A stretch of DNA of 64,000 bases from Palleronia sp. THAF1 (GTDB taxonomy: Bacteria > Pseudomonadota > Alphaproteobacteria > Rhodobacterales > Rhodobacteraceae), in the NCBI RefSeq assembly GCF_009363795.1, contig NZ_CP045420.1, forward strand, positions 2,771,001-2,835,000. The letters run 5' to 3'. The stretch's first letter is position 1, and every line of letters begins with the position of its first letter. Of the stretch, positions 27,800 through 36,907 are shown one piece after another. A program made the translations under genes and the position numbers. Under the pieces are notes generated by a model that saw only the letters and a list, made by a program, of their open reading frames with translations, was not told where the DNA came from and searched no databases.

Positions 27800-28996
27800 T
27801 CAGGTGCTGTAGTCGCGTTGGTCGTCGATGACCTTGCCATCGCGGGGCAGGCTGCCGGGGGCGACGGTTTCCACCGTGCCGCGCAGTTTCAGAATGTCGC
27901 GCACGACGTCATCGGCGTTCTGCGGATCGCCGCCTTCCAGAGCCACGTGCATCGCGTCGGCCTCACCGTCGCGGGTGACTGTGACACGGGCGCGATCCAC
28001 ACCCAGCTTCGCCACCAGATCGGCGACCTGTTCGAGGCGGACGAACATGCCTTTGATCTTGGCGGTCTGATCCGCCCGCCCCATCCAGCCCTTGATCCGC
28101 ATGTTCGTGCGCCCGCACGGCGACTGGCCTGGCAGAACGGCGCTTAGATCGCCAGTAGCGAACCGGATCAGCGGGTACAGCGGGTTAAGCGATGTGACGA
28201 CAACTTCGCCTACTTCTCCCTCGGCCACGGGATCACCGGTTCCGGGAGTGACGATTTCGACGATCATCCCGTCATCGACGATCAAACCCTCCATGGCATC
28301 GGACTCGTAGGCGATGTTGCCCAGATCTGCGGTGGCGTAGCACTGGCGGCAAGCGATACCGCGCTCGGTGTAGACGTCACGCAGCGATGGGAACAGCGCA
28401 CCGCCAGAGACAGCAGCCTTGGTGATCGCCAGCGACAGGCCAAGCTCATCCGCCTTTTCCAGCATGACCTTAAGGTAGTCCGGAGTGCCTGCGTAGGCCG
28501 TGACGCCCAGCTGGGCCGCCGCCTTCACCTGCAGTTCGGTCTGGCCCGTTCCGGCGGGCAGCGTCACCGCGCCCACAGCCCGCGCGCCGGACTCGAACAT
28601 CATGCCGGCGGGCGTCAGGTGATAACCGAAACAGTTCTGCACCATGTCGCCCGCGCCGATCCCACAAGCGCGCAGGAAACGCCCCAGACGGAAGAAATCG
28701 CCATCGACGCGGCCCGGTTCATAGATCGGGCCGGGCGATTGAAAGACATGGGTGAAGTCGGACAGCGGACCGGTCAGCCCGCCCAGTGGCGGATGCTCGG
28801 ACTGCAGGCGCACAAGGTCCGACTTACGCATCACCGGCAGGTTGGCCAGCGCGGCAGCATCTGTGATCTCGCCCGCATCAACGCTATCCAGATCGTAACC
28901 GGGCAAGCCCTGCGCGCGAGCGATCTGCGCAGGCAGGTCGCGGGCGATGTCGGCGGCGCGCTCATCCGCGCTACGGAATTCAAGTTTGGTGCTCAT
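27800..28996 (-). CDS. Phenylacetate-CoA ligase-family (PaaK-like) enzyme
   Basis: The 398-residue protein is a short adenylate-forming enzyme of the PaaK type. It shows LANLPVMRKSDLVRLQSEHP, FHVFQSP-like THVFQSPGPIYEPGR in place of the usual S-S-G-T-T-G P-loop, CFGYHLTPAGMMFESGARAV, TLPAGTGQTELQVKAA, YPLIRFATGDLSAVLPGQSP and GRADQTAKIKGMFVRLEQVA with the C-terminal Lys segment. These enzymes activate aromatic acids to CoA thioesters. The altered P-loop is unusual but shared by divergent PaaK relatives. Its place directly after a branched-chain-type ABC importer suggests that the imported acid is activated here. The substrate is not known. Confidence 0.85.
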   Translation of the reverse strand: MSTKLEFRSADERAADIARDLPAQIARAQGLPGYDLDSVDAGEITDAAALANLPVMRKSDLVRLQSEHPPLGGLTGPLSDFTHVFQSPGPIYEPGRVDGDFFRLGRFLRACGIGAGDMVQNCFGYHLTPAGMMFESGARAVGAVTLPAGTGQTELQVKAAAQLGVTAYAGTPDYLKVMLEKADELGLSLAITKAAVSGGALFPSLRDVYTERGIACRQCYATADLGNIAYESDAMEGLIVDDGMIVEIVTPGTGDPVAEGEVGEVVVTSLNPLYPLIRFATGDLSAVLPGQSPCGRTNMRIKGWMGRADQTAKIKGMFVRLEQVADLVAKLGVDRARVTVTRDGEADAMHVALEGGDPQNADDVVRDILKLRGTVETVAPGSLPRDGKVIDDQRDYST

Positions 28997-29099: not shown

Positions 29100-29951
29100 T
29101 CAGCTAAGCCAGCGCTTGCGACGGCGGTAGGATCGGGTGTCGCGGAACGACTTCCGCCCCTCGTCCGACATGCCAAGGTAGAACTCTTTCACGTCCGGGT
29201 TCTCGCGCAGGTCGGCGGCCTTGCCGTCCATCACGACGCGGCCCGACTCCAGGATATAGCCCTGATGGGCAAAGCGCAGGGCGACGTTGGTATTCTGCTC
29301 GGCCAGAAGGAAGGACACGCCCTCTTTCTCGTTCAGGTCCTTCACGATCCCGAAGATTTCTTCCACCAGTTGCGGAGCAAGGCCCATGGACGGCTCGTCC
29401 AGCAACACGGTTTCGGGCCGGGACATGAGCGCGCGCCCGATGGCGCACATCTGCTGCTCGCCGCCCGAGGTATAGCCCGCCTGGCTTTTGCGCCGCTCTT
29501 TCAGGCGCGGGAAATAGGTGTAGACAAGGTCCAGGTCATCTTCGACCTTCCGCCGTCCGTCACCGCGCGTATAGGCGCCGGTCATCAGATTCTCTTCGAT
29601 GGTCAGGTGTTCGAAGCAGTGGCGGCCCTCCATCACCTGAATGACGCCACGCTTGACCATATCGGCTGGAGCCATCCCTTCGATCCGGTCGCCGCGATAC
29701 AGGATCTGCCCCTTGGTGACCTCTCCGCGTTCGGACTTCAGCAGGCGCGATACGGCCTTCAGCGTGGTCGTCTTGCCCGCGCCGTTGCCTCCCAGAAGCG
29801 CCGTGATGCCGCCCTTTTTCACCGACAGGGACACGCCCTTCAAAACCAGAATGACCGAGTTGTAGATCACCTCGATGTTCTTCACGTCGAGAAGCGTGTC
29901 GTCACCCTCGGGCGTGGCACGGGTCAGCGTTTCAGTGTCGGTCGCGGTCAT
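29100..29951 (-). CDS. livF: Branched-chain-type ABC transporter ATP-binding protein (LivF-like)
   Basis: The 283-residue ATPase has Walker A GGNGAGKTT, the signature SGGEQQMCAIGRALMSRP and Walker B VLLDEPSMGLAPQLVEEIF, with the H-loop region SFLLAEQNTNVALRFAHQGY. It is the LivF-type partner of the LivG-like ATPase in this operon and would energise the importer at the cytoplasmic face. An N-terminal extension of about 20 residues and a basic C-terminal tail (YRRRKRWLS) exceed E. coli LivF. The symbol reflects component type, not a proven amino-acid substrate. Confidence 0.9.
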   Translation of the reverse strand: MTATDTETLTRATPEGDDTLLDVKNIEVIYNSVILVLKGVSLSVKKGGITALLGGNGAGKTTTLKAVSRLLKSERGEVTKGQILYRGDRIEGMAPADMVKRGVIQVMEGRHCFEHLTIEENLMTGAYTRGDGRRKVEDDLDLVYTYFPRLKERRKSQAGYTSGGEQQMCAIGRALMSRPETVLLDEPSMGLAPQLVEEIFGIVKDLNEKEGVSFLLAEQNTNVALRFAHQGYILESGRVVMDGKAADLRENPDVKEFYLGMSDEGRKSFRDTRSYRRRKRWLS

Positions 29952-30014: not shown

Positions 30015-31295
30015 TTACTCGCAGCGACGCTCGATGTTGTTTTCGGCCGCGTAGGCGGTCGCGTCCTCTTCCACCAAGCGCTGGATCAGGTCCTGATCCG
30101 ACTGAATGTAGTCGGTCAGCACTTCCCAGCTGTCGGCTTCGGCGTTCCACTGGTTGATCGCGGCCTGACCCGATCCGCCGTGGTTTGAACAGGACGCCGA
30201 GAACGTCGGGCCGAACCCTTCAAGACCAAGCTCGGTCATGGTCTCTTCCGTCATCTCCAGCTGCTCCATCCCGTCACGCATCTGCGCGGGCGTGATGTCG
30301 GTCACACCGTGGATTTCCTGCGCCTTCTTTGCGCCTTCCACGGCGATCATCGCCGCATAGATGCCCCGGTTGTACAGAACCGTTCCGGCCTGATCGCCAG
30401 CGCCTGCGGCCAAGCCCTTGGACCAGACGTATTCTTCCAGGTCGTCGTAGAGCGCGAAGTCATCGCCCACGGCGTGGAAGTTCAGCGCCTTGTAGCCACT
30501 TGCCCGGTCACCCGCAGGGCGCACGTCGTTCTCGGATCCGGACCACCAGATGCCGATGAACTGGTCCATCGGATAGCGAATGTTCACCGCTTCCTGGATG
30601 GCAACCTGGTTCATCACACCCCAGCCCCACATGATCACATTGTCGGGCTGTTCGCGGCGGATCTGCAGCCACTGGGATTTCTGCTCCTGACCAGGGTGGT
30701 CGACGGGCAGTTCCATCAGTTCGAACCCATGCTCTTCGGACAGCTCTGTCAGCGTGCGGATCGGCTCCTTGCCGTAGGCAGAGTTGTGGTAGACCAGCGC
30801 GATCTTCTTGCCCTCCAGCGATCCGTCGTTCTCGTCCAGCAAGTACTTGATGGCAACGGAGGCGCCGTCCCAGTAGGTGGCGGGGTAGTTGAAGATCCAC
30901 TCGAAGACCTCACCGTCCGACGCGGAGGTGCGGCCATAGCCCAACGTGTGCATCGGGATGCCGTCGGCGGACACGCGCGGGATCAGCTGGTAGGTGATGC
31001 CGGTGGACAGCGGTTGATACAGCAGTGCGCCTTCGCCCTTGGTGGACTCGTAGCATTCCACGCCCTTCTCGGTGTTATAGCCGGTCTCGCATTCGATCAT
31101 GTTGATCATTTCGCCACCGATACCGCCATCACGCTCATTGATCAGCGTGAAGTAGTCGGCGTAGCCGTCGGCGAAGGGGATGCCGTTAGCGGCATATGGA
31201 CCGGTGCGGTAGCTAAGCGACGGGAACGTGAGTTCCGCCATGACAGGTCCGGCACAAACCGATCCCAGCACCATCGCGGTGATTAGCTTCTTCAT
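30015..31295 (-). CDS. ABC transporter substrate-binding protein, branched-chain/aromatic-acid type
   Basis: The 426-residue protein starts with a signal peptide (MKKLITAMVLGSVCAGPVMA) after a strong GGAGGAAG site, which fixes the start at 31295. The mature part has the type I periplasmic-binding fold: SYRTGPYAANGIPFADGYAD, FTLINERDGGIGGEMINMIE, KKIALVYHNSAYGKEPIRTL, and YNRGIYAAMIAVEGAKKAQE. Several Cys residues at the end (SASCSNHGG, ERRCE) may form a disulphide. Ligand is not evident. Neighbouring CoA ligases suggest an organic acid rather than an amino acid. Confidence 0.9.
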   Translation of the reverse strand: MKKLITAMVLGSVCAGPVMAELTFPSLSYRTGPYAANGIPFADGYADYFTLINERDGGIGGEMINMIECETGYNTEKGVECYESTKGEGALLYQPLSTGITYQLIPRVSADGIPMHTLGYGRTSASDGEVFEWIFNYPATYWDGASVAIKYLLDENDGSLEGKKIALVYHNSAYGKEPIRTLTELSEEHGFELMELPVDHPGQEQKSQWLQIRREQPDNVIMWGWGVMNQVAIQEAVNIRYPMDQFIGIWWSGSENDVRPAGDRASGYKALNFHAVGDDFALYDDLEEYVWSKGLAAGAGDQAGTVLYNRGIYAAMIAVEGAKKAQEIHGVTDITPAQMRDGMEQLEMTEETMTELGLEGFGPTFSASCSNHGGSGQAAINQWNAEADSWEVLTDYIQSDQDLIQRLVEEDATAYAAENNIERRCE

Positions 31296-31366: not shown

Positions 31367-32443
31367 CTAGTGCGGGAACGGCCACATCCGCAATTTCTCC
31401 TTCGTGATCCGCCACAGCTGCGCCATCCCGTGCGGCTCGGCGATCAGGAACAGAACGATCAACCCGCCAGAGATCATGAACTGCAAATGCGCAGCCAGAT
31501 CGGTGGGCCAGCCCAACCCGTCCACCAGCACGTTCTTCAGCAGCACCGGCAGCAAGACCATGAAGGCCGCGCCAAGGAACGACCCAAGGATAGAGCCCAG
31601 CCCCCCGATGATGATCATGAACAGCACAAGGAACGATTTGTTGATGCCGAAGGCTTCGCCCACTTCGACGGCACCAAGGTAGACGGCGAAGAACAGCGCG
31701 CCCGACACACCGATGAAGAAGGACGAGATACCGAAAGCCGATAGCTTGGCCCGTAGAGGATTCACGCCGATGATCTCTGCCGCGATGTCCATGTCGCGGA
31801 TCGCCATCCATTTGCGGCCCATGGACCCGCGCGTCAGGTTGCGGCAAATCCAGGCGCTGGCGATTACGAAAACCAAGCAGAACAGATAGGTCGCCCAGGC
31901 CTGCGTCTCCGGCCCGGTGATGCGGAACCCCATCAGCGTCCGCTCGGGCGCGCTGATCTGGCCTGAAGCAGAGTAGTTGTAGAACCACCCCACCCGGTTG
32001 AACAGCCAGACTAGGAAGAACTGCGCGGCCAGCGTTGCGACGGCTAGGTAGAACCCCTTGATCCGCAAGCTCGGCAGACCGAACAACATCCCCACGGCGG
32101 CGGTGATCAGGCCAGAGATGATGACGTGAAACGCGATATTCACGTCCGGGAATGCCGTCATCAGCTTGTAGCAGCTATAAGCCCCCACTGCCATGAACCC
32201 GCCCGTGCCCAACGAGACCTGCCCGCAATAGCCGGTCAGGATGTTCAGCCCCAGTGCGGCGATGGCGTAGATCAGGAACGGCAAGAATACCGCGTTGACC
32301 CAATAGTCGTTGACGATGAACGGAATGACCGCCAACGCCACCGCCAGCAACGCCCAGTAGGCCCACCGATCCAGCTTGATCGGAAAAGTCTGGCTGTCGT
32401 CGCCATAGCTTGTCTTGAAGTCGCCTGCCTCACGATACAGCAT
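31367..32443 (-). CDS. livM: Branched-chain-type ABC transporter permease (LivM-like)
   Basis: The 358-residue permease has 9-10 hydrophobic helices and LivM blocks: AIAALGLNILTGYCGQVSLG followed by TGGFMAVGAYSCY, SLRIKGFYLAVATLAAQFFL, and the coupling-helix region RDMDIAAEIIGVNPLRAKLS leading to FGISSFFIGVSGALFFAVYL. Its N-terminus carries a soluble stretch (YREAGDFKTSYGDDSQTF). It pairs with the LivH-like permease in the inner membrane. AGGGAT precedes the ATG. The 60-residue membrane-protein gene ends 3 bases upstream. Confidence 0.92.
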   Translation of the reverse strand: MLYREAGDFKTSYGDDSQTFPIKLDRWAYWALLAVALAVIPFIVNDYWVNAVFLPFLIYAIAALGLNILTGYCGQVSLGTGGFMAVGAYSCYKLMTAFPDVNIAFHVIISGLITAAVGMLFGLPSLRIKGFYLAVATLAAQFFLVWLFNRVGWFYNYSASGQISAPERTLMGFRITGPETQAWATYLFCLVFVIASAWICRNLTRGSMGRKWMAIRDMDIAAEIIGVNPLRAKLSAFGISSFFIGVSGALFFAVYLGAVEVGEAFGINKSFLVLFMIIIGGLGSILGSFLGAAFMVLLPVLLKNVLVDGLGWPTDLAAHLQFMISGGLIVLFLIAEPHGMAQLWRITKEKLRMWPFPH

Positions 32444-32665: not shown

Positions 32666-33652
32666 CTAGACACGCTCAATGATCTTCTCCCCAAACAGGC
32701 CCTGCGGACGGAACACCAGGAAGACCAGCGCCAGCACATAGGCAAACCAGTTTTCGGTCGCGCCGCCGACCATGGGTCCGATCAGGAATTCGAACAGCTT
32801 TTCCCCCACACCGATGATCAGGCCGCCCACGATCGCGCCGGGGATAGAGGTGAAGCCCCCCAGCATCAGCACCGGCAGCGCCTTCAGCGCGATCAATGAC
32901 AGCGAAAACTGCACTCCCGATTTCGCGCCCCACATGACGCCCGCGACCAAGGCCACGAAACCCGCAAGGGACCACACCAGCACCCAGATGAAGTTCAGCG
33001 AAATCCCGACCGACAGTGCGGCCTGGTGATCGTCCGCCACCGCACGCATGGCCCGGCCCTGCTTGGTATATTGCGAGAACATCACCAGCGCGATCACAAG
33101 GATCGCTGCGATGATCGTCGCGGTGATGTCCAGGTTGTCGATGAAAAAGCCGTAGCCGAAGACGCCATAGGTGTTTTCGTCGATCCACATGTTGATGCCC
33201 TGCGGCAGGCCCACGTCCAGCGTCTTGATGTCGGACCCCCACATCATGTCGCCCAGGCCTTCTAGGAAATAGGCCAGACCGATCGTCGCCATGAACAGGA
33301 TGATGGGCTCTTGATTCACAAGGTGACGGAACACGAGCTGGTTCACGATCCACGCGAACAGCACCATCACCGCCATCGTAAGCAGGATCGCGGCCAGCGC
33401 CGGAACCTCCCATCCGAAGCCGTGAATTTCGGTGCCGAAGACGGCGTTGATCAGATGCTCGAACGGCACCTGCCCTTCCATGATCCCCACCAGCGTCAGC
33501 GCCGCAAACAGCGCCATGACGCCCTGCGCATAGTTGAAGATACCCGAAGCCTTGAAAATCAGCACAAAGCCAAGTGCGACAAGCGCGTAAAGCACGCCCG
33601 CCATCAGGCCATTCAGCGTGACCTCCATCGCGAAGAGCAGTTGATCGGGCAT
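32666..33652 (-). CDS. livH: Branched-chain-type ABC transporter permease (LivH-like)
   Basis: The 328-residue permease has eight or so hydrophobic helices with LivH blocks: TLNGLMAGVLYALVALGFVL, IFKASGIFNYAQGVMALFAA, TIGLAYFLEGLGDMMWG, and the cytoplasmic loop GRAMRAVADDHQAALSVGIS that contacts the ATPase, followed by GGLIIGVGEKLFEFLIG. GGAGG stands before the ATG at 33652. It forms the membrane channel with LivM. Confidence 0.92.
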   Translation of the reverse strand: MPDQLLFAMEVTLNGLMAGVLYALVALGFVLIFKASGIFNYAQGVMALFAALTLVGIMEGQVPFEHLINAVFGTEIHGFGWEVPALAAILLTMAVMVLFAWIVNQLVFRHLVNQEPIILFMATIGLAYFLEGLGDMMWGSDIKTLDVGLPQGINMWIDENTYGVFGYGFFIDNLDITATIIAAILVIALVMFSQYTKQGRAMRAVADDHQAALSVGISLNFIWVLVWSLAGFVALVAGVMWGAKSGVQFSLSLIALKALPVLMLGGFTSIPGAIVGGLIIGVGEKLFEFLIGPMVGGATENWFAYVLALVFLVFRPQGLFGEKIIERV

Positions 33653-33747: not shown

Positions 33748-34572
33748 TTAGTCGTGGGCGACGCCAAGATAGGCGTCGATGACTTCCTGGTTGTTGCGCA
33801 CCTCGTCCGGGGTGCCGTCGCCGATCTTGCGGCCGTAATCCATGACGACGACACGGTCCGACAGGTCCATGACCACGCCCATATCATGCTCGATCAGGGC
33901 GATGGTGGTGCCCATTTCGTCGTTCACGTCGAGGATATAGCGGGACATATCCTCTTTTTCCTCGACGTTCATGCCCGCCATCGGCTCGTCCAGCAGCAGC
34001 AGATCGGGTTCCGCCGCCAGCGCCCGCGCCAGTTCGACGCGTTTTTTAAGGCCGTAGGGCAAGCGGCCCACGGGTGTCTTGCGGATGTGCTGGATCTCCA
34101 AGAAGTCGATGATCCGCTCGACCTTGGCGCGGTTCTCGGTTTCCTCGCGCTTGGCCTTGCCGAACCAGATGGACTGCGCGAACAGGCCCGCGCTCATGTC
34201 GTTCAGGCGGCCCGTCATCACGTTGTCGAGGACCGTCATCCCCTCGAACAGGGCAATGTTCTGAAAGGTGCGGGCGATGCCGTCGCGGGCAACCTGATAG
34301 GGCTTCATCTGCGGGCGGCGCTCGCCCCGGAACCAGACCTCGCCTTCTTGCGGGACATAGAAGCCCGAGATGACGTTGAGCATTGACGATTTGCCCGCCC
34401 CGTTCGGACCGATGATGGCGCGGATCTCGCCTTCGCGGATGTCGAAAGAGATATTCTTGATCGCCTCCACCCCGCCGAAGCGCAGGGTGATGTTGCGCAG
34501 ATCGAGGATCTGGCCGCCAATGGTGCGCCCGTCGGCGGTGATGTGGGGTTTGATGTCGGCGGTATCTTTCAT
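33748..34572 (-). CDS. livG: Branched-chain-type ABC transporter ATP-binding protein (LivG-like)
   Basis: The 274-residue ATPase has Walker A GPNGAGKSSMLNVISGFY, the degenerate LivG-type signature LPYGLKKRVELARALAAEP and Walker B LLLDEPMAGMNVEEKEDMSR with IALIEHDMGVVMDLSDRVVV as the H-loop region. The long insertion after Walker A and the C-terminal tail with VRNNQEVIDAYLG are typical of LivG. It pairs with LivF. The ATG overlaps the lipoprotein stop by ATGA (34569-34572), an unusual upstream partner. Confidence 0.91.
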   Translation of the reverse strand: MKDTADIKPHITADGRTIGGQILDLRNITLRFGGVEAIKNISFDIREGEIRAIIGPNGAGKSSMLNVISGFYVPQEGEVWFRGERRPQMKPYQVARDGIARTFQNIALFEGMTVLDNVMTGRLNDMSAGLFAQSIWFGKAKREETENRAKVERIIDFLEIQHIRKTPVGRLPYGLKKRVELARALAAEPDLLLLDEPMAGMNVEEKEDMSRYILDVNDEMGTTIALIEHDMGVVMDLSDRVVVMDYGRKIGDGTPDEVRNNQEVIDAYLGVAHD

Positions 34573-34952
34573 GAGCCCGTCTTTCGAACGTAACCCGAGA
34601 AACCGCAGGCAGCGCCATGGAAGCTACTGCAACCCGGCCCTTGATCTACGATATAGGATAAAGGTCCATCCTGTTTCATCGTTACTTTGCAAGACTGGCC
34701 AAATTCGGCGGTACTTACGGTCCAGTTCCCATTACTCAATTCATCAACTCTCCCTTGGATTTCGCCCAAGCAGCCGCGACCTTTAAGAATCAGATTTGCG
34801 TTTTGGCCCTGCACAAACATAGAAAGGGAGGCATTGTCGCCGTTTCCAGAATAGCTTCCGTCTAAGGAATTTCGTGAAACCTCTGCGGTGTTCACGCAGC
34901 CTGTAAGAATTGTACTGACTACAAAAAGACTGACTGTGTTCAAAGGCTTCAT
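34569..34952 (-). CDS. Small lipoprotein of unknown function, AT-richer than its operon
   Basis: The 127-residue protein has a lipoprotein signal (MKPLNTVSLFVVSTILTGC, lipid-modified Cys at residue 19) and a mature domain with five more Cys (GCLG, QSCKV, PGCSSFHGAACGF), enough for disulphides in the periplasm. By hand count the gene is about 49% GC, clearly below the GC-rich neighbours, and its codons include AT-ending choices rare around it. Its ATG overlaps the CoA-ligase stop by ATGA and its stop overlaps the livG ATG by ATGA. The fit is exact, so it is translated as part of the operon, but composition suggests a later acquisition. No family is recognised. Confidence 0.78.
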   Translation of the reverse strand: MKPLNTVSLFVVSTILTGCVNTAEVSRNSLDGSYSGNGDNASLSMFVQGQNANLILKGRGCLGEIQGRVDELSNGNWTVSTAEFGQSCKVTMKQDGPLSYIVDQGPGCSSFHGAACGFSGYVRKTGS

Positions 34953-36907
34953 TCCGCCGCCTCCCGCATGTCACTCCGCACGGGAAACACCTTGGCGTCC
35001 ACGATTCTAAGCGTCGCCTTGATCTTGCCCTTGCGGCCATCTTCGTAGGTCACTTCGGTCTCGGTGTAGATCTCGTCCTTGCCCTCGTACAAAGCGCCGA
35101 CGAGATCCTCGAACTTCTCTCCGATCACCTTGCGGCGGACCTTTTGGGTGCGGGTCAGTTCGCCGTCGTCCGCGTCGAGCTGCTTGTGCAGCACGCAGAA
35201 GCGGTGGACCTGGCAGCCCGACAGCATGGGGTCCTGCGCCACGCTTTCGTTCGTTTCCGCCACGTGTTCGGCCATCATCTCCAGCACCTTCGGATGCTGC
35301 GACAGTTCCTGGTAAGAGCCATAAGAGACGTTGTTGCGCTCGGCCCAGTTGCCTACTGCGTTCAGGTCGATGTTCAGGAAGGCCATGCAGTTGTCACGGC
35401 CCGCGCCGAAGACGACGGCCTCCAGGATGTTGGGGAAGAACTTCAGCTTGTTCTCGACATACTTGGGCGCGAACATACCGCCCGTGGCCAGCTTGCCCAC
35501 GTCCTTGGCCCGGTCGATGATGCGCAGGTGGCCGGTGTCGTCCTCGATGAAGCCTGCATCGCCGGTGGCGACCCAGCCCTCGGAATCCTTTGTGTCCGCC
35601 GTGCTTTCGGGGTTCTTGAAGTATTCCACGAAGGTGCCGGGCGAACGGTAGTAGACCTCTCCATTCTCGGCGATGCGGATTTCGACGCCGGGGGATGGCA
35701 CGCCGACGGTGTCGGACCGGACCTGACTGTCAGGCTGCTGGGTGATGAAGACGGTCGCCTCTGTCTGGCCATAGAGCTGCTTCAGATTGATGCCGAGGCC
35801 GCGGTAGAAATCGAAGATCTCCGGCCCGATGGCCTCTCCCGCTGTGTAGCCGACGCGGATACGGCTGAAACCCAAGGTGTTCTTCAGCGGGCCGTAGACC
35901 ATCGCCTCGCCGATACGGTATTTCAGGCGATCCCACGCGCTGACGATTTCGCCGTCCAGTATCTTCGGCCCGACCTTCTGCGCATGGTCCATAAAGTGGT
36001 GGAACATGCCGCGTTTCAGACGACCCGAATCCTCCATCCGGATCATCACGGTGGTCAGTTGGCCTTCGAACACACGGGGCGGCGCGAAGTAGTAGGTGGG
36101 GCCGATCTCGCGCAGGTCGGCCTGCATCGTGTCGGGGCTTTCGGGGCAGTTGACGCAGAAGCCCGCCCAATAGGCCTGCCCGATGGTGAAGATGAAATCG
36201 CCCACCCAGGCCATAGGCAGGTAGGCAAGGATCTCTTCCTGCTCGGTCAGGTTGTCGAAATCGCAAGATGCCTTGGCGGTTTCGATGATGTTCCGGTTCG
36301 ATAGAACGACGCCTTTGGGGCGGCCCGTCGTGCCAGAGGTATAAAGCATGATGCAGGTATCATCGTACTGCGCGGCATCCCGGCGGGTCTGCATCTCTGC
36401 GCCCAGATCGTCGCGCTTGGCACGGCCCCGATCTTGTAGGTCGGCATAGGCGATCAGACGCGGGTCGTCGTATTTCCGAAGGCCGCGCGGGTCGAGGTAG
36501 ACGATCTTGCGGATGCGGTCGTTGTCCTGCGCGGCATCCATCATCTTGTCGACCTGCTCCTGGTCGCCGACAATGGCCATGACGGCTTCTGCATGGTCCA
36601 GCTGGTAGCCGATCTCTTCGGGGGCGGCATCCTGATAGATCGGCACCGGAATCCCGCCCGCGCATTGCACAGCAACCATCGCCCAATACAGGCCCGGTCG
36701 GTTGCGGCCCGAGATGATGACATGTTCGCGCGGCTGCAGCCCGGCGTCGATCAGGCCCAGCGCCAGCGCTTCGATCTCGTCACGCGTTTCGGCCCAGGTC
36801 CAGCTTTGCCAGATCCCGAATTCCTTTTCGCGATAGGCCGCGCGGCCTGATAAACGGTCTGCGTTCCGCGCCAACAGCGCAGGGATGGAGACGACGGTCT
36901 CGGTCAA
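34949..36907 (-). CDS. Long-chain acyl-CoA synthetase-type AMP-dependent ligase
   Basis: The 652-residue enzyme adenylates a carboxylic acid and transfers it to CoA. It has the P-loop motif MLYTSGTTGRPKGVVLSNRN, LAYLPMAWVGDFIFTIGQAY, the A5 motif LKQLYGQTEATVFITQQPDS, the A7 Asp in GWVATGDAGFIEDDTGHLRI and IIDRAKDVGKLATGGMFAPK, as in COG1022 long-chain ligases. The start is TTG at 36907, preceded by GGGAGGATC at ideal spacing. It opens the operon containing the ABC importer, so it may activate the imported acid. Chain length or aromatic nature cannot be read from sequence. Confidence 0.9.
   Translation of the reverse strand: MTETVVSIPALLARNADRLSGRAAYREKEFGIWQSWTWAETRDEIEALALGLIDAGLQPREHVIISGRNRPGLYWAMVAVQCAGGIPVPIYQDAAPEEIGYQLDHAEAVMAIVGDQEQVDKMMDAAQDNDRIRKIVYLDPRGLRKYDDPRLIAYADLQDRGRAKRDDLGAEMQTRRDAAQYDDTCIMLYTSGTTGRPKGVVLSNRNIIETAKASCDFDNLTEQEEILAYLPMAWVGDFIFTIGQAYWAGFCVNCPESPDTMQADLREIGPTYYFAPPRVFEGQLTTVMIRMEDSGRLKRGMFHHFMDHAQKVGPKILDGEIVSAWDRLKYRIGEAMVYGPLKNTLGFSRIRVGYTAGEAIGPEIFDFYRGLGINLKQLYGQTEATVFITQQPDSQVRSDTVGVPSPGVEIRIAENGEVYYRSPGTFVEYFKNPESTADTKDSEGWVATGDAGFIEDDTGHLRIIDRAKDVGKLATGGMFAPKYVENKLKFFPNILEAVVFGAGRDNCMAFLNIDLNAVGNWAERNNVSYGSYQELSQHPKVLEMMAEHVAETNESVAQDPMLSGCQVHRFCVLHKQLDADDGELTRTQKVRRKVIGEKFEDLVGALYEGKDEIYTETEVTYEDGRKGKIKATLRIVDAKVFPVRSDMREAAE

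Follow-up and report, generated by a model that had tools for sequence, protein, structure and literature searches.

A predicted lipoprotein gene in a putative translational relay slot between an acyl-CoA ligase-like gene and livG in Palleronia sp. THAF1

The window analyzed here, a stretch of 64,000 nucleotides from Palleronia sp. THAF1, carries a liv-type operon on its minus strand. An AMP-binding, acyl-CoA ligase-like gene with an uncertain N-terminal start occupies positions 34949..36907 of the window (PF00501, E 4.9e-65) and lies 5' of a gene encoding a livG-like ABC ATPase (33748..34572; PF00005 and PF12399). The ORFs that follow on the same strand are putatively assigned: a livH-like permease (32666..33652), whose place is kept in relatives, and, again by reference to relatives, a livM-like permease (31367..32443), a substrate-binding protein gene (30015..31295) and a livF-like ABC ATPase (29100..29951). 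A further ORF past livF (27800-28996) is ligase-like by eye. This gene order is kept in eight of nine regions from the same genus, and the ninth (L117) holds only the ligase and livG of the set. Extra ORFs were also seen at other junctions of the liv operon in relatives (L109, L110, L113, L115 and L118); the substrate-binding gene is separated from livF by 1.3 kb in L109 and L115, and the livG-livH spacing is 2.9 kb in L110.

The space between the ligase and livG, hereafter named the slot, is filled in the window by a predicted lipoprotein gene of 127 codons with an ATG start (34569..34952, minus strand), delimited as an ORF and placed in a family alignment (A1). The original prediction described 4-base overlaps of this gene with the ligase stop and the livG start. 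This proved correct: with the end of the ligase ORF at 34949 and the livG start at 34572, each overlap measures 4 bases and reads ATGA on the minus strand (lipoprotein start on ligase stop, 34949..34952; livG start on lipoprotein stop, 34569..34572). A Shine-Dalgarno-like GGGAGG lies 5' of the lipoprotein ATG, within the 3' end of the ligase (34960..34965, minus strand), and GGAG, GAGG and AGGA are absent from the 24 bases upstream of the window livG. The lipobox that had been predicted is present by eye as LTGC at residues 16-19 (34896..34907, minus strand); as it follows a hydrophobic stretch, we take it to be a lipobox with a signal peptide, the motif being judged by eye. Five cysteines were counted in the protein (positions 19, 61, 88, 108 and 116), and not six as first claimed.

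The composition of this gene sets it apart from its surroundings. Its GC content is 48.4%, close to the 49% claimed beforehand, with GC1/2/3 values of 0.488/0.480/0.488, against a mean GC of 0.643 (sd 0.023) and a mean GC3 of 0.770 (sd 0.057, minimum 0.613) in 49 ORFs of the window. A codon index based on the window was 0.417 for the lipoprotein gene and 0.686 (sd 0.073) for the window ORFs, and thus codon adaptation and GC3 are both atypical. The protein matched its own genome only once, and is therefore not a dispersed repeat. It had no Pfam match above the cut-off (best E 0.047), no PHROG match at E 0.01 and no match in phage records, and a phage origin of the gene itself was rejected on this last ground. 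Single-sequence fold prediction gave a mean pLDDT of 43.6 and a pTM of 0.31. A solved-structure match to plant lectins (best E 0.048 over 48 profile positions) was taken as chance.

To follow the slot within the genus, 14 genomes were considered, the window genome included, and a ligase with 76% identity or more was regarded as an orthologue. Ten genomes carry one, the window's among them; two of the remaining four have no ligase match at E 1e-100 and the other two have only relatives of 39-41%. The lipoprotein gene is absent from the slot at all nine other orthologue loci, and the family profile described below matched the window genome alone among the 14. The slot of the nearest relative (G009, ligase 85%) contains a different ORF of 137 aa with ATGA at both ends. 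In Palleronia abyssalis, which together with G009 makes up the two nearest relatives, ligase and livG overlap directly. Direct ATGA overlaps were found in G003, which has the junction sequence of the P. abyssalis locus (L002), and in G007 and G011. Open frames of 20 and 23 codons that could act as relays occupy the slots of G004 and G013, a hydrophobic ORF of 86 aa that of G001, and ORFs of 122 aa those of G008 and G005. The G008 ORF resembles slot ORFs from two other genera (L047 and L128). The G005 ORF is weakly like the same two (31 residues, E 2e-4) and stops 83 nt short of livG, and so is not a full relay. Slot contents are therefore unlike even between sister species.

The window protein belongs by sequence to a rare secreted family with four conserved cysteines, represented for example by WP_007121407.1, a hypothetical protein from a Sulfitobacter plasmid. 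A search of 393 other genomes of the taxonomic family at E 0.01 or better gave five matches (G344, G325, G143, G253 and, doubtfully, G165), and Sulfitobacter plasmid records gave five more with 30-36% identity. A profile search found the family in five of 394 genomes, the window's included, that is, in four of the 393 others. The search was reciprocal, as the G253 protein retrieved G344, G000, G325 and G143 and thereby recovered the five genomes of the profile search. In alignment A1, which contains nine sequences, C61, C88, C108 and C116 are invariant in all nine rows and other positions are common over the whole domain; the identity of the window protein to the other members is 25-32%. A clear lipobox is present in the window member, whereas by eye none of the others has one as clear; members L095, L101 and L102 have a cysteine in the signal region. 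L099 was rejected as a family member, since its likeness (25% over 64 residues) lies within a longer frame and the profile search missed it.

The genomic environments of these relatives are varied. A phage virion structural protein gene is situated some 2 kb from the G344 member (L119), the G325 member (L120) is on a 10.4-kb contig that carries a GIY-YIG gene, and transposase genes were found near the Sulfitobacter plasmid members in two of the four records inspected. G344 and G325, the best-matching relatives, have low GC3 (0.37 and 0.41), a feature that fits a lower-GC donor rather than demonstrating one. Not every relative looks mobile, because the G143 and G253 copies have high, host-like GC3 (0.94 and 0.93). 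The G253 member (L118) belongs to the same operon in a different genus; it sits between the livH and livM genes, and the ATGA at its start is shared with the stop of a small ORF that precedes it. For the role that the original prediction tentatively gave the window protein, an outer-envelope helper in substrate capture, this copy is the sole hint. Among the loci of the junction census presented below, the profile detected only the window's slot and this livH-livM copy. The original prediction regarded the lipoprotein gene as recently gained, a claim that is supported by its absence from the nine other slots of the genus and by the scarcity of relatives in the taxonomic family; the contrary case, in which this slot would hold homologues throughout the order, was sought in the sampled junctions, and no such homologues were found. 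A recent gain is therefore likely.

We then considered the slot itself. A total of 179 ligase loci were assembled from five sources: the best 80 of 458 relatives from a contig scan, the 10 genus loci, one G253 region, 28 new loci from a family search that matched 267 of 394 genomes, and 60 further places from that list. Removal of 23 duplicates (among them L150, identical to L011, and L198, identical to L044) left 156 distinct junctions, in which strains of the same species were retained (e.g., L055 and L059). L092-L094 were excluded as ligase relatives of 35-41%, and L036, L090 and L193, having no livG start, were set aside. At 148 of the 156 junctions the ligase stop overlaps an ATG, GTG or TTG, as ATGA in 132, GTGA in 15 and TTGA in one. 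The lone TTGA is an artefact of the ligase stop of L040, which is misplaced in the census (gap of 664 instead of 718, with a relay under either). The livG start lies at -4 in 34 junctions (33 ATGA, 1 GTGA), elsewhere within 20 nt in 10, and 20 nt or more past the ligase stop in 109; it was not found in three.

A gap was considered as spanned when the frame opening on the ligase stop ended between -6 and +12 relative to the livG start. This holds for 93 of the 109 gaps, and the spanning ORF ends 4 bases into the livG start in 50, 8 bases into it in 29 and otherwise within the tolerance in 14. Spanning was frequent at all lengths (5/7 gaps of 20-50 nt, 24/27 of 50-80, 25/27 of 80-120, 16/19 of 120-200 and 23/29 of 200 nt or more), and the 16 unspanned gaps include six of the 29 longest. 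The sizes of these putative relays range from 12 to 241 codons. In the first sample, 51 of 57 gaps were spanned against 22.6 expected from dinucleotide shuffles of kept length, and 14 of 16 against 0.41 for gaps of 200 nt or more, under a null that preserves a register which is itself non-random. For the 376-nt gap of the window (locus L082), 400 such shuffles produced not one ORF running from the ligase stop up to the start of livG. The exact fit of the lipoprotein gene into the operon, as originally described, is thus real, but it is not particular to this gene: most sampled relatives that have a gap are filled end to end by unrelated ORFs, and the fit appears best explained by the slot.

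The strength of this pattern depends on gap length. Of the 29 gaps of at least 200 nt, 19 have an open relay frame, and the remaining five frames are open in 2, 3, 6, 3 and 2. At 120-200 nt (19 gaps), the relay frame is open in 16, the other sense frames in 8 and 13 and the reverse strand in 12, 13 and 16; in the 54 gaps of 50-120 nt, the corresponding numbers are 47, 28 and 30, and 41, 36 and 43. Openness alone is therefore weak evidence in shorter gaps, and the case there rests on the register and on the kept ATGA. The register fits the start motif in 56 of 62 starts of the ATGA type and 29 of 33 of the ATGnnTGA type, with 14 starts unclassed. The final ligase codon is GAA, which creates the ATGA, in 91 of the 102 gap loci with GAA or GAG, while GAA makes up 33% of nearby GAA/GAG codons (p 1e-32, with loci treated as independent of kinship). 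The ligase stop is TGA in 106 of the 109 gap loci. On a FastTree tree of 111 ligases, slot states are clustered, and a minimum of 20 changes between the close (<20 nt) and gap states is required; 30 of the 108 inner branches are weak, and the well-supported ones force only nine changes between direct and long states. AT-richness as a general trait of long slots was rejected, GC being below that of livG in 18 of 29 (p 0.12).

Other junctions of the operon served as controls. In the same run, 65 of 77 ligase-livG gaps were spanned, with a start codon on the stop in 76. At livG-livH, one of 133 gaps was spanned. As a control this junction is partly trivial, because the livG stop overlaps a start codon in only 27 of these gaps, the spanned one among them, and lacks one in the other 106. 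At livH-livM (72 loci), spanning ORFs were found in eight of the 65 gaps of 20 nt or more, all eight among the 28 whose livH stop carries a start codon. Spanning was commoner there than at livG-livH. It was found in none of 10 junctions from livM to the substrate-binding gene, in two of nine from the latter to livF, and in none of nine from livF to the next ORF.

The short relays look unconserved as peptides, as judged from sequence comparison. Substitutions between related pairs do not fall consistently on third positions (4,5,5 and 5,7,9 in two pairs; 5,4,9 and 4,0,7 in others), and indels often compensate one another. L022 and L085 share 75% of their DNA and are in the same frame in only six of 60 aligned columns. 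A conserved GC-rich element, present in 43 of the 109 gaps (e.g., L161, L162 and L151), is used in three frames (22, 18 and 3 loci), and the relay is intact in 40 of the 43. Because homologous DNA can lie in different frames at different loci and still leave the relay unbroken, what is kept in short relays seems to be an open path rather than a peptide. Gaps of 45-200 nt showed no excess of structure by folding energy (mean z +0.33 over 75, two below -2), and gap sequences from seven sources had no Rfam match at the gathering score. The GC-rich element ends in CGCCCCGCCCRCCRTCCC and resembles a gene-end hairpin, the hairpin being judged by eye. G226 carries 20 exact copies, and at 14 of the 19 copies outside the slot an open frame of at least 240 nt ends 47-60 bases before the end of the element. 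None was found in the window's genome.

Several of the longer slot ORFs form small families, such as L047/L089/L128 (weakly L091) and L042/L073/L090. The L047 family was found in two of 295 genomes, in a search that excluded the L089 and L091 genomes, and both copies lie directly 3' of the ligase. The slot of L032 holds two ORFs, the first encoding a DUF6650 protein (also PHROG 29952) and the second a hydrophobic protein of 84 aa that resembles that of L078 by eye. In the long gaps of L013, L028, L043, L070 and L071, the opposite strand likewise carries an ORF (about 55-94 aa, alike between loci by eye), and the open sense frame may be a by-product in these five loci.

Taken at the level of architecture, statistics and distribution, these results make it reasonably probable that the window gene is a horizontally acquired accessory gene for an envelope protein of the rare four-cysteine family, lodged between the ligase and livG in a slot that acts as a translational relay; reinitiation, lipidation, the route of acquisition and the role of the protein are what we infer from them. 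Ribosomes finishing at the ligase UGA would begin anew at the AUG that overlaps it, translate the lipoprotein frame as far as its UGA and reinitiate there on the overlapping livG AUG. Coupling through a 4-base overlap would be the state that is ancestral to this junction or preferred there, and if so, DNA entering the gap would mostly be kept only as an unbroken frame from the ATGA to the livG start. Such a relay would restore the -4 spacing at both ends, by a short frame with no conserved peptide in some lineages and by a full gene in others. According to PMC10666635, coupling, which is established for short overlaps in tested pairs, was almost abolished at an intergenic distance of about 20 nt in the six gene pairs tested, a distance dependence that could explain why a gap would need a bridge. 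A Shine-Dalgarno-like motif precedes livG in 67 of the 109 gap loci, against 13% by chance, and therefore livG may start independently in many species. The same kind of motif precedes the ATG on the ligase stop in 25 of the 109 gap loci and in 16 of the 34 direct overlaps. The livG of the window should be among those depending most on the relay, because GGGAGG precedes the lipoprotein ATG and no such motif precedes livG.

It is unlikely, although worth considering, that the lipoprotein instead works together with the liv-type transporter or with the ligase, and was recruited for the benefit of being co-translated with them. The member found between livH and livM in another genus points in this direction, as does the slot family of L047, L089, L128 and, weakly, L091, which was met in the ligase-livG slot only. 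However, a single operon copy among nine other members of the four-cysteine family is suggestive and no more: three other genomic loci (9-14 kb each) and the four of five plasmid records that were inspected (8 kb each; H3 was outside the set) do not place the gene near ligase or liv operon genes. Almost none of the sampled operon-bearing genomes contains the family, and the extra ORFs at several of its junctions suggest that the operon may simply tolerate insertions.

We consider it quite improbable that the gap frames are kept open against Rho-dependent termination on untranslated RNA, with the ATGA overlaps being incidental. Polarity through Rho acting on untranslated RNA is described in the review PMC12548453, but livG-livH gaps, many of them longer than 100 nt, are rarely spanned from the livG stop, and frames ending 4 or 8 bases into the livG start are more exact than protection from Rho needs. 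It is very improbable that the gene is an old and fast-evolving resident of the slot that most relatives have lost. Distant relatives do exist within the taxonomic family and slot states change often, but the sampled slots hold no four-cysteine member except the window's, the two nearest relatives have a different ORF and a direct overlap, and the codon use is atypical. Birth of the gene de novo out of slot DNA, an idea to which the many unconserved short frames lend themselves, is in effect refuted for the window gene, because homologues with the four invariant cysteines exist outside the slot and are recovered reciprocally.

The proposed relay can be compared with known systems. The overlaps at the slot are of the kind for which termination-reinitiation coupling at -4 (ATGA) has been measured (PMC10666635, PMC12548453), but here one and the same junction is traced over 156 loci, with an entire exchangeable ORF as the bridge. 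PMC12548453 cites MIRUs, mycobacterial interspersed repetitive units (Supply et al. 1997), apparently mobile repeats that insert at start codons and contain an internal ORF coupled at -4. The window gene is alike in its ATGA at both ends, but it is single-copy, slot contents are mostly unrelated and no mobility mechanism was seen; the GC-rich gap element does repeat in one genome (G226). Short upstream ORFs whose sole purpose is to bring ribosomes to the following gene are described in the same review. The short relays, lacking a conserved peptide, agree with this idea, but slot ORFs lie between two long genes with overlaps at both ends, and are full-length genes in some species. Among the titles listed in literature searches, conducted mostly outside subscription journals, none dealt with the ligase-livG junction or with exchangeable relay ORFs.

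A broader and more tentative possibility is that the ligase-livG junction of Roseobacteraceae constitutes a natural cassette site that needs no integrase, where a translation filter would admit only DNA that is open from the ATGA to the livG start. Incoming DNA would then receive a ready start codon and expression, and at this single fixed site of the operon species could exchange accessory genes or give rise to proto-genes. If the relay reading is right, gene coupling would survive large insertions by turning the insertion itself into a relay, and a conserved stop-start overlap would give new genes immediate expression. The slot would also provide a ready-made set of natural relays of 12 to 241 codons for measuring how far handed-on coupling can reach, and may offer a route to spotting translated short ORFs whose peptide is unimportant.
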